Shown piece by piece: positions 1,158 to 37,890 of a stretch of 37,890 nucleotides of DNA. The notes under the pieces were generated by a model. That model had not been told where the DNA came from. It ran no database searches and saw nothing but the letters and a program-made list of their open reading frames with translations. Both the position numbers and the translations under genes were made by a program. Position 1 is the first letter of the stretch. The number at the start of each line of letters is the position of its first letter. The DNA is from a virus: positions 1-37,890 of IMG/VR virus record IMGVR_UViG_3300009705_001498; one strand, 5' to 3'.

Positions 1158-3254
1158 ATGAAATTTTTATATAGTGGTTATGCAGTACTGATATCTATTG
1201 TGTTGCTACTTGCATTGCGAGTAGCAGATCCAACGGCACTACAAAGTGTTAGAGGTCAAACATTTGATGCATATCAACAGTTAGATACAATTAAGCAAAG
1301 CCAGGATGTTGTACTATTAAACATCGGCGAAAAAAGTTTAGCAGTTAATGGTCAATACCCTTGGCCCAGACAATACTATGCACAAATGGTGATAGATGTT
1401 GCAGGCGCCGGAGGCGGTGTGCTAGGCTGGACGATTATGTTTCCTGAAGCAGACAGGTTTTCTGGAGACGAAATATTTGCTAATTATTTGATGGAAAATA
1501 AGGTTAATGTGCAAGGAGCAAGACGTAATCCTATTAACTTTAATGTATTAAGTCAAGCAACTAGTACAAGAGGCATTAAAACATCAGGCCCACATATAGG
1601 AACAGGCACAATTGGCCCTGTGCCAGCAAAAGATTATTTACTAAAGTGGCCCAACTTAGTTACAAACATTCCGCTACTAGAAGCAGTAGCAAACGGCAAA
1701 GGCGTAACAGCGTCAGCACCACAGCCAGATAACCAAACACGAACATACCCATTAGCAATTACAGTTGGCGATAGACTGTATCCTAGTTTTGCTATTGAAA
1801 TGCTAAGGGTAAGTAAAGGTCAAAAAAGTTATATGGTTAAGACTAGCGAATTGGGAATACAAGAAGTTGCTGTTAAAGGATACGACCCAATAGTAACGCA
1901 GTCAGACGGTACAGCATACATTCGCTTTAACAACACATTCGAGGAAATTGAATACTTGGGAGCCGAAACTTTGGACCATCTTGCAGGCAAAATGGTTATA
2001 GTAGGTGTTACAGCAGAAGGTATTGCAAATCCTGTGCCTACGCCAAGAGGTAATTTGTATCCACAGCAAATACATGCTCATATGCTACAGAACTTTATAG
2101 ATAGCAGTAACATTACCAGGAATGAGTTAAGTGCTGTGTACGAGCTTCTGTGTGCGTTACTGGGCATGATATTAATAGGTTTAGCGATATATAAATCGCA
2201 TATATGGGTAGGATTAGTAACTACAGTTACTATTATAGGAGGAATTGTATACTACAGTATACATTCTTACACAGCAAACTTGGTATTATTTGATGCAACG
2301 TTTCCAGCAATAGCAAGTTTCTTAATATTTACCCAGGCAAGTTTTAACAACTTCTGGATACAGTTTAAACTAAGAGCAGAGATACAAAAACAATTTGCCG
2401 GTTACGCCTCTCCTACAGTAGTGCGTATGTTACAAGAAAACCCAGAACTAATTAAGCAAGGTATGAAGAAAGAAGTAAGTATTTGCTTCTCAGATTTACG
2501 TGGATTTACACCTCTAGGTGAGAGCTTTGGGGACGATGTACAAGGTTTAACAAAGATAATGAATGGGTATATGGATGCTATTACACAACCTATACTTGAT
2601 GCAGACGGCATGGTGATTAAATATATCGGCGATGCAAGTATGCACATACACAATGCTCCTATGGACGATCCAGACCATCCTAAGAGTGCGGTGCAAACAG
2701 GACTATTAATGCTTAGAGCAGTAGAGAAATTCAATGATAAAATTGTTAAAGAGGGTAGACCACCCGTTGGTATGGGTGCTGGTATTAATACTGGGCTCGG
2801 TTATATTGGGGAAATGGGCTCCACTGCAAGACACTCATATGACATACTCGGAGATGCAGTTAGTACCGCGGCAAGAATAGAAAGCAAATGTAAAGAGTAC
2901 GGATGTTTACTCCTTGTGGGCGGTGATACACATAAACATACTGCAAATGATTTCTTTTATTTAAAAGTAGATGACTTGGCAGTAAAAGGAAAAACAATTG
3001 GTATAGAAATATATACCGTACTTGATATTAAGAAAACTAAGTATGCTAAAGCAAAACAAATGCACGAAGACATGCACACACATTATCGCAATCAAGAATT
3101 TAAGAAAGCAATTAATCTATGTAACAAGTTAGCAGATGCATTTGAAGGCAAGATGTCAAACTATTATACTATGTGGATTGAACGTTGTAAATTCCAAATG
3201 ACTCAAACACTTCCTAAAGATTGGGACGGAGTATTTATTGCTACATCGAAGTAG
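1158..3254 (+). CDS. CHASE2-domain class III adenylate cyclase
   Basis: This 698-residue protein has the full bacterial CHASE2-cyclase layout: a membrane segment at about 5-22, an extracytoplasmic CHASE2 sensor region at about 30-325, three membrane segments at about 328-347, 349-368 and 375-396, and a class III nucleotide cyclase domain at about 440-625. The two metal-binding aspartates are present (Asp446 in FSDLRGFT, Asp492 in YIGDAS), as are the adenine-selecting Lys488 and Asp562 and the transition-state Arg573. The usual catalytic Asn four residues before that Arg is Ser569, which may lower activity. Expected reaction: ATP to cAMP and pyrophosphate at the inner membrane, controlled by an external signal. 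It has a leaderless late promoter and abuts the convergent gene at 3255 with no gap. Finding it intact in a T4-like phage is unusual. Confidence 0.9.
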   Translation: MKFLYSGYAVLISIVLLLALRVADPTALQSVRGQTFDAYQQLDTIKQSQDVVLLNIGEKSLAVNGQYPWPRQYYAQMVIDVAGAGGGVLGWTIMFPEADRFSGDEIFANYLMENKVNVQGARRNPINFNVLSQATSTRGIKTSGPHIGTGTIGPVPAKDYLLKWPNLVTNIPLLEAVANGKGVTASAPQPDNQTRTYPLAITVGDRLYPSFAIEMLRVSKGQKSYMVKTSELGIQEVAVKGYDPIVTQSDGTAYIRFNNTFEEIEYLGAETLDHLAGKMVIVGVTAEGIANPVPTPRGNLYPQQIHAHMLQNFIDSSNITRNELSAVYELLCALLGMILIGLAIYKSHIWVGLVTTVTIIGGIVYYSIHSYTANLVLFDATFPAIASFLIFTQASFNNFWIQFKLRAEIQKQFAGYASPTVVRMLQENPELIKQGMKKEVSICFSDLRGFTPLGESFGDDVQGLTKIMNGYMDAITQPILDADGMVIKYIGDASMHIHNAPMDDPDHPKSAVQTGLLMLRAVEKFNDKIVKEGRPPVGMGAGINTGLGYIGEMGSTARHSYDILGDAVSTAARIESKCKEYGCLLLVGGDTHKHTANDFFYLKVDDLAVKGKTIGIEIYTVLDIKKTKYAKAKQMHEDMHTHYRNQEFKKAINLCNKLADAFEGKMSNYYTMWIERCKFQMTQTLPKDWDGVFIATSK

Positions 3255-12018: not shown

Positions 12019-13992
12019 ATGACACTTTCCTACCAATCAGCACAGTTTATAAATAGTAGTATGCCAAAAGCACAAGAACATGTACCGGATCTAACTTATA
12101 AAGATTTTACATTAGAGTTGTATAAGCAATTCCATAAACAGTCTAGTTTAGTGAATCCTTTTAAAAACATTGAAGTAACACATACACCTGTACAGGTTTT
12201 ATTATTCACAGACTCACCCGGCTGGGGAAATCAACATCCATTATCCGCGATGGGCGAAACTACAGTAGACCATCACGGTATAAAACGTGATAGTTTAACT
12301 CAAGCAACAGGTGTAAATGATGTAGACAAATGGAAAGACGGTAGGTATGACCGAACAAATTTTAATACAAGTAGAGCAATGGGTGTGTATAAACTAGCAC
12401 ACGAATGCAGAGAGCATGGCTTTACAGTTCAAGTTATAGATAACATGTTTCATTTAGACATTGAAACAACAAAACGAATTATAGACAAGTTTGTAGGTAA
12501 AGAAACATTAATGCTTGGAGTTAGTAGCACCTTTAGAAGTTTTCAATTACTATCACAACGACCATCCATATCAAACTTTGATCCGTTTGAAGGATTTGAC
12601 CAAGAAGAAAAAAACGAATGGATAGCTGATTTAACAGTTACTCGCAAACATTTCTTTTCAACCGGTAAAAAGGGCGATGAGGTGTTAGGCAAGTACATAC
12701 ATGATATAAATCCTAATGTAAAATACATAATCGGCGGAGCAAATGTTACTGCACAATATTCGCATCCGGATCCTGACGAAAAAGGGTTAATGGACTATGT
12801 GAATTTAGGATTTGGCGATGTAACGTTCCCACAAATATTACAACATCTTAAAGATGGCGGCAAAGCAGACCATCTTCCCACAAATAAACATAAGGTAATG
12901 GTAACGTCTGACGGCGAAAGTAAGTTAGACATAAAACATTCAACTCAAGTGTGGCAACCAGAAGATTTAGTCCAACGTGGCGAAATATTACCCTTGGAAG
13001 TTGCTCGAGGTTGTATATTTAGGTGTAGTTTTTGTTCCTTTCCATTGAACGGAAAAGGAAAAGGTGAAGCAGTAAGAGATTTTAGTTATATTAGAGAAGA
13101 ACTAATAGAGAATTACGAAAAGTATGGCATAGAAGATTATTGGTTAACAGATGACACGTTTAATGATGACCATCAAAAAATGATTGACTGGCATGCAATG
13201 ACGCAGACACTTCCATTTAAATTAAAGTGGAGTTCGTACATTAGATTGGATTTAGTATACATAAACCGTAAACAGAATCCGCCACAAGCACAATTAATTG
13301 CAGAAAGTGGTTGCAGACTAACAAACTTAGGCATTGAAACAACTGACCCTGAATGTGCTAAAGATATTGGCAAAGGACTCCATCCTGATATACAATTTTC
13401 ATATTTAAGAGAATTAGCAGACGGGTATTGGAAAGGCATGACATTTATGAGCGGTATGATAGCCGGTCTACCGAGTGATACTAGAAAAACTCTTAACAAG
13501 ATGAGTAAGTTTTTGCTTTCAAAGGAGAATCCTTTGCATACTATTAACATGAATCCGTTATATATTAGAAAAACTGATGACGATGCTCATTATTTTACTG
13601 AACTTAGTATAAGTGAATTTAGTGCTAACTGGAAAGAGCATGGATATGAATTTACCGAGTTTGATAAAAACGGTGAAGAAATACCAGTGGATGCTAGAGG
13701 CACACTAATGAAAAGTAACGTGTCCTGGAAAAACAGAAATGGTTTAACATTTTACGATATAGTAAAGTATGCTTTGAAGTTTAACACTAGGCTAGCAGAA
13801 TCTAACAAGCATGTAGCAAGTCCATTATTTCTTGCACACGGATTACCGTATCACGATGAAAGATTAGCCGCCCCAGGCGAGCTATACGATGAAAGAAACA
13901 ACTTTTATTTCAATTATAAAGAGTATTGCAAAGTAAACGACTACTTTTACAAATTATTTACGGAAAATCACACTCACTACTCTAGGAAATAG
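12019..13992 (+). CDS. Radical SAM protein with B12-binding-like N-terminus
   Basis: The 657-residue protein has the radical SAM signature Cys332-x3-Cys336-x2-Cys339 within ARGCIFRCSFCSFP, which holds the [4Fe-4S] cluster that splits S-adenosylmethionine. Further core elements follow, such as DYWLTDDTFNDD, a LGIETTDPE strand and a GMIAGLPSDT segment. Residues about 50-300 look like the Rossmann fold of B12-binding radical SAM enzymes (KYIIGGANVT, VNLGFGDVTFPQIL), but the DxHxxG cobalamin ligand motif is not visible, so B12 may not bind. The C-terminal 150 residues are of unknown type. Substrate unknown. The ferredoxin reductase upstream could supply electrons, and the FabZ-like gene downstream suggests an acyl or surface-modification pathway (inference). 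Confidence 0.88.
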   Translation: MTLSYQSAQFINSSMPKAQEHVPDLTYKDFTLELYKQFHKQSSLVNPFKNIEVTHTPVQVLLFTDSPGWGNQHPLSAMGETTVDHHGIKRDSLTQATGVNDVDKWKDGRYDRTNFNTSRAMGVYKLAHECREHGFTVQVIDNMFHLDIETTKRIIDKFVGKETLMLGVSSTFRSFQLLSQRPSISNFDPFEGFDQEEKNEWIADLTVTRKHFFSTGKKGDEVLGKYIHDINPNVKYIIGGANVTAQYSHPDPDEKGLMDYVNLGFGDVTFPQILQHLKDGGKADHLPTNKHKVMVTSDGESKLDIKHSTQVWQPEDLVQRGEILPLEVARGCIFRCSFCSFPLNGKGKGEAVRDFSYIREELIENYEKYGIEDYWLTDDTFNDDHQKMIDWHAMTQTLPFKLKWSSYIRLDLVYINRKQNPPQAQLIAESGCRLTNLGIETTDPECAKDIGKGLHPDIQFSYLRELADGYWKGMTFMSGMIAGLPSDTRKTLNKMSKFLLSKENPLHTINMNPLYIRKTDDDAHYFTELSISEFSANWKEHGYEFTEFDKNGEEIPVDARGTLMKSNVSWKNRNGLTFYDIVKYALKFNTRLAESNKHVASPLFLAHGLPYHDERLAAPGELYDERNNFYFNYKEYCKVNDYFYKLFTENHTHYSRK

Positions 13993-32712: not shown

Positions 32713-33831
32713 ATGCAGAAACCATTTGACTTAACAAAGTTCCGAACAGGAATCACGAAAAGTATCGCTGGCATCAGTGCTGGCTTTCATGATCCACAGG
32801 ATTGGATATCAACTGGTAACTACACTCTTAACTACCTAATTAGTGGGGACTTCCAAAAGGGAGTTCCTCTAGGTAAAGTAAGTGTATTTGCAGGAGAGTC
32901 TGGTTCAGGTAAATCGTTTATCTGTTCAGGTAACTTAGTGCGTAATGCACAACAACAAGGCTGTCAAGTAGTATTATTTGATAGTGAGAATGCACTAGAT
33001 GAAGATTGGCTACAAGCATTAGGCGTTGATACAACACCTGAGAAATTATTGAAGATTGGCGTCTCAATGATTGATGATGTAGCAAAAACAATTAGTGACT
33101 TTGTAAAAGACTATAAGTCTAACTATGGTGACCTACCATATGCAGAGCAACCTAAATTACTATTCGTAGTGGATAGTTTAGGAATGTTGCTTACACCTAC
33201 CGATGTTGCACAGTTTGAAAAAGGCGACATGAAAGGTGATATGGGTAGAAAGCCTAAGGCATTAACAGCCCTAGTTAGAAATACAGTTAACCAACTAGCA
33301 CCACATCCAATCGGACTTGTTGCAACTAACCATACATACGCATCGCAAGATATGTTTGACCCTGATGATAAGATATCAGGTGGACAAGGATTTGTATATG
33401 CTTCAAGTATTGTAGTAGCAATGAAGAAGTTGAAACTTAAAGAAGACGAAGACGGAAATAAAGTATCGACAGTACAAGGTATTAGAGCGGCATGTAAAGT
33501 AGTGAAAACACGTTACAGCAAACCGTTTGAAAGTGTACAGATTAAAATTCCGTATGAATCAGGCATGAATCCTTACTCAGGTATTTTAGAATTACTTGAG
33601 CAAAAAGGAATCGTTGTAAAAACTGGTAATAAACTAGAATATACATCACCTGTTACAGGCGAAGTTATTAAAGAGTTTAGAAAGCAGTGGACTGAAGAGA
33701 GACTTCAAATAGTAATGGATGAATGGAATCAAATACCTGATGCAAACTATCATGATGATTTTAGTGATTTAGTTGACGATGAGACTTTAGTAGATGAACC
33801 TACTGTAGAGGAGTTGGCAAATGAATCCTGA
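32713..33831 (+). CDS. uvsX: UvsX RecA-like recombinase
   Basis: The 372-residue protein is the T4-type recombinase. Walker A is GESGSGKS at residues 61-68, Walker B is LLFVVDS near 152-158, and the core includes SGGQGFVYASS near 228-238 and the C-terminal VKTRYSKPFESVQIKIPY. It forms filaments on single-stranded DNA and drives strand exchange for recombination-dependent replication. Length is close to T4 UvsX (391). The C-terminus is acidic, as usual. It follows gp32 by ten bases, and the next gene overlaps its end. UvsY lies two genes downstream, so the recombination set is together. Confidence 0.94.
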   Translation: MQKPFDLTKFRTGITKSIAGISAGFHDPQDWISTGNYTLNYLISGDFQKGVPLGKVSVFAGESGSGKSFICSGNLVRNAQQQGCQVVLFDSENALDEDWLQALGVDTTPEKLLKIGVSMIDDVAKTISDFVKDYKSNYGDLPYAEQPKLLFVVDSLGMLLTPTDVAQFEKGDMKGDMGRKPKALTALVRNTVNQLAPHPIGLVATNHTYASQDMFDPDDKISGGQGFVYASSIVVAMKKLKLKEDEDGNKVSTVQGIRAACKVVKTRYSKPFESVQIKIPYESGMNPYSGILELLEQKGIVVKTGNKLEYTSPVTGEVIKEFRKQWTEERLQIVMDEWNQIPDANYHDDFSDLVDDETLVDEPTVEELANES

Positions 33832-35930: not shown

Positions 35931-35989
35931 ATACATAAGTTAATAAGAAGGGCTTATTAATAATAATCATAATGTCGGGGATGACTAAT

Positions 35990-37039
35990 ATGACAAACAT
36001 GAAGAAAAATAAACTAAACTATGTAAAGATTAAGGCTGGTACTTACCGTAAAAACGATATCGTTGATACAGTATTTCCGATTATTAAGCCACTTAACATA
36101 GGTAAGAAAGGTGCGTTTATTACTGTAGACGGTAGTGAAGTAATGGGAGACCTGTTCGCTAGTATTAGAGTACTTATAGAAGATCCAACACAGGATCTAG
36201 AATATGTAACTCCTAGCGTTTATGCAGAGCAACCAAAAATTGACCTGAAGCCTAAGAAAGAAGAGAATGACGAAGAAGCTATTGAGCGTATCAGAGAACG
36301 TTTTGATATCCTTGATAGAATGACACATGCTGTAGCAGAAGGTACAGTACGTGGTATGATTGTTAGTGGTCCTCCAGGAGTTGGTAAATCTTATGGTGTA
36401 GAAACTGTACTAGAAGATTACGATATGCTTACTGAGGTTGCTGGCAAGCCTGCAAGAACTGAAGTTGTAAAAGGTTCAGTTACCCCAATTGGTTTATTCC
36501 AAACACTATATAACAATTCAGAAGCAGGTAACATACTTGTATTTGATGACTGTGATAGTGTGTTGTTTGATGAAGTATGTTTGAACATGCTTAAAGCAAC
36601 TTTGGACTCAGGTAAGAAAAGAACTATTACTTGGAAGTCAGAATCACAAGCACTTCGTAGAGAAGGTATCCCAGATAGATTTGAATTCAAAGGTGGTTGT
36701 ATCTTTATTACTAACGTAGACTTTGAAAACGTTCGTTCTAAAAAGATTAAGGATCACTTAGCGGCACTTATGTCAAGATGTCACTACTTGGATCTTACAA
36801 TGAACTCTATTAGAGATAAGTTCCTTAGGATTAACCAGATTGTTAAAGATGGTATGCTTGAAGAATACAAGTTTGGTGTAGATGGTGACCAAGAAATAAT
36901 TAACTTTATGACCACTAACCAAGAAGCTCTTAGAGAGATATCGTTGAGAATGGTTTTGAAGATATCGGATCTTAGAAAAATGGATCCTGCTAATTGGGAA
37001 AAACTTGCAAGAACTACTTGCATGAAAGGAACAATTTAA
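35990..37039 (+). CDS. AAA+ ATPase
   Basis: The frame opens at 35972, with further ATGs at 35981, 35990 and 35999. I favour 35990 because GGGGA lies eight bases before it. The 349-residue product has an N-terminal beta-type domain of about 100 residues and an AAA+ core: Walker A SGPPGVGKS near residues 125-133, Walker B ILVFDDCDSVL near 182-192, then KRTITWKSE, a sensor-type GGCIFITNVDF near 235-245 and a helical lid. Marine T4-like phages often carry such an ATPase in the replication region; its client is unknown to me. It is driven by tandem early promoters and ends with a structured 3' region. Confidence 0.85.
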   Translation: MTNMKKNKLNYVKIKAGTYRKNDIVDTVFPIIKPLNIGKKGAFITVDGSEVMGDLFASIRVLIEDPTQDLEYVTPSVYAEQPKIDLKPKKEENDEEAIERIRERFDILDRMTHAVAEGTVRGMIVSGPPGVGKSYGVETVLEDYDMLTEVAGKPARTEVVKGSVTPIGLFQTLYNNSEAGNILVFDDCDSVLFDEVCLNMLKATLDSGKKRTITWKSESQALRREGIPDRFEFKGGCIFITNVDFENVRSKKIKDHLAALMSRCHYLDLTMNSIRDKFLRINQIVKDGMLEEYKFGVDGDQEIINFMTTNQEALREISLRMVLKISDLRKMDPANWEKLARTTCMKGTI

Positions 37040-37103: not shown

Positions 37104-37128
37104 GAAGCCCGGATCCCCTCCGGGCTTC
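37104..37128 (+). terminator. Strong GC-rich hairpin terminator
   Basis: GAAGCCCGG (37104-37112) and CCGGGCTTC (37120-37128) form nine perfect pairs around a seven-base loop. No long T run follows, but the stability and position fit a terminator between the ATPase and receptor genes. Confidence 0.7.
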
Positions 37129-37159: not shown

Positions 37160-37187
37160 TTGACTTTGGCACAGTAAAGTGTATAAT
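37160..37187 (+). promoter_or_regulatory. Sigma70-like promoter of TonB-dependent receptor gene
   Basis: TTGACT (37160-37165), 16-base spacer, TATAAT (37182-37187), followed by AAAGGAG and ATG 37236. It lies after the terminator, so the receptor is transcribed on its own, probably early. Confidence 0.75.
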
Positions 37188-37235
37188 TACTTATTGTTGA
37201 AAGACAAAAATAATAACATTTAAAAAAGGAGAAGT

Positions 37236-37890
37236 ATGAACAAGATGTTTACTTTTGCCGCCATAATGCTATTTGCATTCCAGGCCCAGGCAGAGAATAT
37301 AGAAGAAGTCGTAGTATATGCCCAAGAGGTTAAAACTACAAAAGCAAGTCCATTAACAAGTACAACTTTATTTGAGGCAATAATGCCTGAGAAGACTTGG
37401 ATGGCAGGTGGTTACGGAGCAAGTGCAATGTTCAGAGAACGTGGTGCTCAATCTGTGCATACTACAGTATATAAAAATGGCGTTCCAGCAAACAACCCGG
37501 GCAGTGGTTGGTACGATTTTGGACACGACATTACTAGTGGCGAAACAGTAAAAGTTATTAGTGGTGCAAACGGAGTTATGTATGGTTCAGGCAGTATAGC
37601 TGGAACAGTACTAATTCAAGACACTATTGATACTAGTGTAACTGCAAGACTCGGTTCAGACCGTCAGCAGTATATTAGTGTTGCCCCTACAAGCTGGTTC
37701 CAGTATTCAGACTTTAGCATAGAGCAACAAGCAAGGAATGATAACACTGAAACAGACAAGTACAAAAACACGAGTGCTAAAATTATAGCAGATGCAGGAG
37801 ACTTTAAGTTTATAGTTAATGCAGTAGATTATGCTTACGATTATGACAACTGTTATACACCGGCGTTCTCTCAATCAAACGATTGTTTAC
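37236..37890 (+). CDS. TonB-dependent outer-membrane receptor, 3' end outside window
   Basis: The first 218 residues are visible; the frame is open at the right edge. Residues 1-19 form a signal peptide ending AQA, so export to the periplasm is expected. Residues 22-27 (IEEVVV) look like a TonB box. A plug domain follows (about 45-120): FRERGAQSVHTTVYKNGVP, then GETVKVISGANGVMYGSGSIAGTVLI, the typical RG...V-x-DGVP and IEVL-GP-x-YGSGAIGG pattern with some changes. Beta-barrel strands begin after about residue 120. Such receptors import siderophores, cobalamin or sugars using TonB energy. An AAAGGAG site and a sigma70-like promoter precede it. A phage copy could feed the host or block phage entry (inference). 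Confidence 0.88.
   Translation, partial: MNKMFTFAAIMLFAFQAQAENIEEVVVYAQEVKTTKASPLTSTTLFEAIMPEKTWMAGGYGASAMFRERGAQSVHTTVYKNGVPANNPGSGWYDFGHDITSGETVKVISGANGVMYGSGSIAGTVLIQDTIDTSVTARLGSDRQQYISVAPTSWFQYSDFSIEQQARNDNTETDKYKNTSAKIIADAGDFKFIVNAVDYAYDYDNCYTPAFSQSNDCL

Follow-up and report, generated by a model that had tools for sequence, protein, structure and literature searches.

A stretch of viral DNA of 37,890 nucleotides (the window) ends within an open reading frame that resembles a TonB-dependent receptor (TBDR) of the outer membrane. Does such a gene truly belong to a phage and, if it does, what would the phage import with it? A first-pass annotation, made from sequence alone, had read the frame as a phage-encoded receptor with a visible signal peptide, TonB box and plug domain, under its own promoter in a 'T4-like' genome. 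It had left a list of roles open: iron, vitamin or sugar uptake, replacement of host receptors, or exclusion of other phages. Two results were named that would refute the reading: a chimeric join near the receptor, or a stop soon after position 37890 that would leave only a plug fragment.

A full-length receptor gene resident in phage genomes

The receptor frame meets no stop before the window end. The window corresponds to a complete IMG/VR record, and the gene is therefore truncated where the contig stops (Table 1). A scan of viral records with the window receptor returned 62 relatives, identical contigs included. The complete receptor, found in a colinear record (L002, 10001-11662), comprises 554 amino acids and terminates in an aromatic residue, as is seen in outer-membrane barrels. 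Two separately assembled contigs, G001 and G016, match the window gene for gene at 98-100% identity across the join, and G001 carries the receptor gene on to a stop at 554 amino acids. Neither refuting result is met: independent contigs are colinear through the supposed join, and the frame stays open for 554 codons.

Table 1 Features of the receptor gene and of the genes discussed with it (window positions)
Feature	Position	Strand	Basis or remark
Radical SAM enzyme, possible cobalamin or SAM consumer	12019..13992	+	Radical_SAM 47.1 bits; B12-binding 16.4 bits, below the 32.1 cut-off
UvsX/RecA-like recombinase, in the same conserved module as the receptor	32713..33831	+	Profile match and synteny
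AAA ATPase, phrog_1250, unknown function; upstream syntenic partner of the receptor	35972..37039	+	Profile match and synteny
9-bp G+C-rich hairpin (GAAGCCCGG/CCGGGCTTC) between AAA gene and receptor gene, without trailing T-run	37104..37128	+	Sequence
Sigma70-like promoter, TTGACT (37160-37165), 16 bp, TATAAT (37182-37187)	37160..37187	+	Sequence
Ribosome-binding site AAGGAGA, 5' of the receptor ATG	37226..37232	+	Sequence
BtuB-like TonB-dependent receptor gene, 5' part (218 codons)	37236..37889	+	ORF, Pfam, colinear records
Signal-peptide-like N-terminus, MNKMFTFAAIMLFAFQAQAE	37236..37295	+	Alignment and eye; ends AQA
Ton box IEEVVVYAQ (aa 22-30)	37299..37325	+	Sequence and alignment
Shortened plug domain, Pfam match aa 50-124	37326..37634	+	About 17 residues present behind the Ton box of bacterial BtuB-like receptors are missing
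Loop L2 region; invariant R167, D169, N170, E172, D174, Y176	37728..37763	+	Alignment
Loop L3 region; near-invariant Y203, invariant D204, C206, C217	37836..37889	+	Alignment

The N-terminal features that had been claimed hold on Pfam and alignment evidence. The Plug model (PF07715) matches the window receptor with 31.7 bits and its relatives with 28.8-39.2 bits, all above the Pfam cut-off of 23.9. In an alignment of 51 relatives, Ala19 of the receptor is conserved to at least 90%, and Glu23, Glu24 and Val27 of the Ton box are invariant; signal peptide and Ton box were judged by alignment and eye, without a signal-peptide predictor. The promoter holds as well, with equivalents within one base of TTGACA-16/17-TATAAT in 33 of the 59 phage loci examined. 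An AlphaFold2 model computed from an alignment of 51 full-length relatives (pLDDT 85.6, pTM 0.84) predicts a plug within a complete barrel of 22 membrane strands with 11 outer loops, counted from the secondary structure of the model after merging two hairpin extensions. Pfam barrel models gave no match to the receptor proteins.

The gene occupies a fixed place in related phages. Among 80 contigs carrying the neighbouring UvsW-type helicase, 70 have the receptor just upstream of the helicase, eight have the AAA gene directly beside the helicase and no receptor, and two are truncated, giving 70 of 78 when the latter are left out. At this site (site i), the receptor gene has a promoter of its own and lies inside a replication module. 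At a second site (site ii), it adjoins baseplate genes but faces the opposite direction; in each of the 12 loci where its upstream side is visible, the adjacent gene there encodes an MTA/SAH nucleosidase (family PNP_UDP_1). In the contig G009, the receptor is at site i and other genes occupy site ii. All phage copies form one clade in the receptor tree, within which site-ii receptors appear in three places (L009; L010/L012/L013/L019/L031; L049), and therefore repeated relocation of the gene is probable. Values of dN/dS between 0.04 and 0.18 among close receptor pairs reveal purifying selection. Two further myophage types carry divergent receptors beside gp32-type and gp46/47-type genes. In all, three or more lineages of marine myophages possess the family.

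Long residence in the phage had also been inferred from a lack of GCWGC sites. Residence is borne out by the shared location; the absence of GCWGC is correct too, but the 655 bp of receptor sequence in the window say little alone. More telling is the count across 97 TBDR genes, 4 sites against about 101 expected. The motif is missing from the window (0 versus 45 expected from dinucleotide shuffles), from the 250-kb G009 (0 versus about 130) and from nine phage contigs altogether (the window, G001, G004, G006-G009, G014 and G016). In three SAR11 loci, GCWGC is commoner than expected. The label 'T4-like' is only partly upheld: the terminase is of the T4 type, but among isolates it is jumbo myophages from the PA5oct group that come closest (57% identity). 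The GC content of the phages is 32-40%. We conclude that the frame in the window is a genuine, full-length, phage-resident TonB-dependent receptor gene and not a chimera or stray host gene. Being a gene of host type that has become fixed in phages and is kept under selection, it fulfils the criterion for auxiliary metabolic genes; that the protein carries out TonB-energised transport is inferred.

Kinship to BtuB and a shortened plug

To place the receptor among known TBDRs, we compared it by structure, profile and loop sequence. The ten best Foldseek matches of the model in the PDB are all structures of E. coli BtuB, the vitamin B12 receptor (E 3.8e-21, TM 0.75), while a PDB sequence search with the single receptor sequence found nothing. 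A 28-row phage profile run against eight E. coli TBDRs scored 51.0 bits with BtuB and 16.7 bits with CirA; FepA, Fiu, FhuA, FhuE, FecA and PqqU each remained below 8 bits. A receptor of the iron or siderophore type is less likely on the scores of FepA, FhuA, FecA, Fiu and FhuE. Profile-profile alignment to BtuB-like proteins covers the full length (probability 100, E 2.2e-41).

Several loop residues match functional positions of BtuB. Glu172, Asp174 and Asp204 (51 of 51 sequences) and Tyr203 and Tyr539 (50 of 51) align with BtuB residues Asp193, Asp195, Asp230, Tyr229 and Tyr579, respectively. In BtuB, Tyr229, Asp230 and Tyr579 contact cobalamin, and a cage of aspartates holds calcium (PMC7360065); the exact list of its calcium-binding residues, and part of the numbering, is general knowledge. 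BtuB Asp179 and Asp241 have no clear acidic counterpart in the phage alignment. Conservation in loops L2, L3, L6, L7, L9, L10 and L11 exceeds that in the membrane strands (mean entropy 0.95-1.2 versus 1.53), whereas L1, L4, L5 and L8 are variable; taken together, all loops except L8 are more conserved than the strands (p=0.0017). As far as sequence conservation can tell, this pattern fits a fixed ligand and speaks against a decoy that is being driven to diversify.

Bacterial relatives point the same way. The best match in 399 Pseudomonadota genomes (L110, 72.8 bits) shares the L2 and L3 motifs (NTEDDGYEN; YDNC...TNDC). For this protein, for L111 and for the SAR11 homologues, the best NCBIfam family is TIGR01779 (TonB-B12). 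A Cobalamin riboswitch lies directly upstream of L110 and L111, and an AdoCbl-II riboswitch directly upstream in five of the six SAR11 loci (L064-L069), whereas no cobalamin riboswitch was detected in the promoter region of the window or in the six phage loci scanned. Such a riboswitch is common, though not universal, in front of BtuB genes. Several SAR11 BtuB-like genes (L064, L066, L067 and L068) lie near radical-SAM genes with B12-binding matches.

The phage receptor is only about 22% identical to BtuB and does not reach the TIGR01779 equivalog cut-off (best phage member 56.6 versus 599.7 bits); the riboswitch-linked bacterial relatives likewise fall short of it, at 133-318 bits. The evidence nevertheless points to the BtuB branch in particular, because BtuB is the top Foldseek match of the phage receptor and its best-scoring E. 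coli TBDR, and because several of the calcium- and cobalamin-associated loop residues are conserved. Cobalamin binding and uptake remain inferred. The evidence thus favours the vitamin entry on the initially open list of roles, and the choice between uptake and exclusion still rests on inference.

The plug differs from that of bacterial relatives. The distance from the Ton box to the RG motif is 43 residues in 97 phage copies and 39 in three (n=100), against mostly 58-61 (about 60) in bacterial BtuB-like proteins. Every one of the 100 phage copies is missing a plug segment of about 17 residues that bacterial copies keep; two bacterial entries with apparently short plugs (L134 and L135) were set aside, as they look like a truncated and an over-long frame. 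The gap falls at about residues 30-46 of mature BtuB (numbering counted by hand). The mechanically weak subdomain of BtuB, whose extraction by TonB opens the channel, comprises residues 23-73 (Hickman et al., PMC5413942). As the gap lies inside this range, the phage clade lacks about one-third of the weak subdomain. With a shorter plug, the gate on which TonB pulls would probably be smaller or open more easily, which is an inference.

A putative corrinoid importer and its rivals

We propose that the receptor is a BtuB-like transporter that imports cobalamin or a close corrinoid for the SAM and radical-SAM metabolism of the phage, a reading we favour with a probability of roughly 0.6. The receptor would be made in the infected cell from the strong host-type promoter. 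Cobalamin or a related corrinoid would be taken up via the calcium-organised loops L2 and L3 and loop L11, energised by the host TonB-ExbBD system through the conserved Ton box. Because the phage copies lack the riboswitch control of their bacterial relatives, uptake should continue in the presence of cobalamin, when it would normally stop. The imported cofactor would support the supply of methionine and SAM, as well as radical-SAM enzymes of the cobalamin type. Family, fold, synteny, promoter, loop conservation, plug deletion and, in the scanned records, riboswitch absence are shown. The substrate, the timing of expression, the metabolic benefit and the effect of the plug deletion are inferred; the host is unidentified, and its TonB and its need for B12 are unproven.

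The gene content of the phages is coherent with this mechanism, although the connection is inferred. SAM synthetase, MTA/SAH nucleosidase and APRT are encoded near the receptor in these phages. MTA/SAH nucleosidase is known to remove 5'-deoxyadenosine, while APRT and MetK recycle adenine and methionine. Radical-SAM enzymes are present, some with B12-binding matches that stay below the Pfam cut-off. A B12-dependent ribonucleotide reductase was considered as a source of cobalamin need in G009 and is unsupported, as NrdA adjoins a probable NrdB with the look of a class I small subunit. The AAA gene next to the receptor has generic AAA matches only, and we do not claim it as CobS. Several points speak against cobalamin: the low identity to BtuB, the TIGR01779 shortfall, the unmatched Asp179 and Asp241, the class I-like reductase and the sub-threshold B12-binding matches. 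A bolder version, in which the phage receptors form a TBDR class of their own that is riboswitch-free, near-core and shortened in the plug for easier import of cobalamin for SAM and radical-SAM enzymes, is tentative, and we consider it clearly less likely than not.

The most serious rival is a working importer of the BtuB branch with another scarce, large ligand, which is possible. It could draw on the low identity, the missing aspartate counterparts and residues invariant only in the phage proteins, for example Arg167 and Asn170, and TBDR specificities are known to change readily. Against it, few parts of the protein are as conserved as the calcium and cobalamin residues of the loops, and the nearest bacterial homologue combines the NTExDxYxN and YDNC...NDC loops with a cobalamin riboswitch. 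We regard it as unlikely that the main role is a change of the cell surface, either replacing a host receptor blocked by the phage or excluding other phages or colicin-like toxins. Phages commonly use BtuB and other TBDRs as receptors, and a strong host-type promoter would suit early exclusion; a decoy, however, needs neither an invariant Ton box nor ligand loops, most surface loops, far from diversifying, show unusual conservation, and the neighbour at site ii is a gene of the SAM cycle.

Even less probable is a virion part or adsorption factor, as proposed for the TBDR of pelagiphage Skadi. That receptor is encoded among structural genes (PMC10504331), and our site-ii receptors lie beside baseplate genes. 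The protein has, however, an outer-membrane signal peptide and barrel; its orientation at site ii, where it accompanies the nucleosidase, is opposite to that of the baseplate genes, and at site i it sits in a replication module under its own promoter. Misassembly of a host gene onto a phage contig is all but excluded. Its sole support is the truncated gene end of the window, whereas independent records are colinear through the receptor, its position is shared by 70 of 78 related contigs, and the phage-wide avoidance of GCWGC extends into the gene. Of all these readings, corrinoid import remains the one we prefer.

Known systems and genomic surroundings

Phage-encoded TBDRs are already known, but a BtuB-type family with a short plug appears to be new within the literature we searched, where we found no report of such a family or of its near-core status; most subscription papers and preprints lay outside that search. 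BtuB of E. coli and its riboswitch-controlled relatives share with the phage receptor the fold, the 22-strand barrel, the Ton box and the C-terminal motif, and BtuB has the five loop counterparts (Asp193, Asp195, Tyr229, Asp230 and Tyr579). They differ in that the phage protein is only distantly identical, lacks the plug segment and any detected cobalamin riboswitch, and is encoded by a phage. The annotated TBDR of Polarivirus skadi, a pelagiphage, is read as an adsorption receptor (PMC10504331); it too comes from a marine phage, but one of a different type. Marine megaphage Mar_Mega_1 encodes a SusC-type TBDR with a suggested role in carbohydrate uptake (PMC9723777). This is likewise a phage-encoded TBDR, but of the SusC branch. 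Among viral structure models, the only clear TBDR is a marine-phage SusC, with 805 amino acids and about 10% identity to our receptor. The SAR11 BtuB-like TBDRs also belong to the BtuB branch and neighbour radical-SAM genes; unlike the phage copies, they have a full plug and, mostly, a riboswitch, and they form a separate clade. A weak plug-region match (E 1e-5 to 5e-9) connects the phage receptor with phrog_5687, a longer family (760 amino acids) of unknown function.

The phage receptor family has no match among 50,697 phage records. Matches to bacterial BtuB do occur in phage records, in bacterial-looking contigs or unannotated faecal records. SAR11 as host is suggested by shared genes, among them a gene beside SAR11's own BtuB with a 50% identical homologue in the phages, but none of 397 genomes of that family holds a phage-type receptor, and the matter is not settled. 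Two receptor-bearing phage contigs (L224 and L226, IMG records 2786546798 and 2788500184) have record numbers unlike those of metagenomes; they may derive from isolates or single cells and might point to a host.

As a rule, the products of phage genes that enhance the metabolism of the host are enzymes or periplasmic proteins. If our reading is true and phages keep an outer-membrane vitamin receptor as a near-core gene, infection would redistribute the uptake of a vitamin that is scarce in the ocean. The family would also serve as a natural experiment on how TonB gates its channels, evolution having removed part of the mechanically weak plug from a BtuB relative, and it lends itself to asking whether such phages exploit the receptors used by other phages or defend them.

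Several further features of these genomes were noted. The baseplate-side site appears to hold exchangeable cargo: comparison of G009 (127855-128678) with G007 (65488-68308) reveals differing genes beside a conserved small gene, either a 208-residue hydrolase-like gene or the nucleosidase and receptor. By sequence look, G009 also carries an array of about eight radical-SAM/SPASM-like genes (162631-177076), followed by a carbamoyltransferase-like gene (177901-179415). Giant single frames of 7091 and 6236 amino acids lie beside baseplate-like genes in G007 (38880-60155) and G009 (133638-152348), respectively. Finally, the window itself encodes, at 1158-3254 on the + strand, a 698-residue protein that joins a CHASE2 sensor to a class III nucleotidyl cyclase (114.9 and 56.6 bits), and this gene is kept in G014 (73%), G008 (56%) and G009 (55%).
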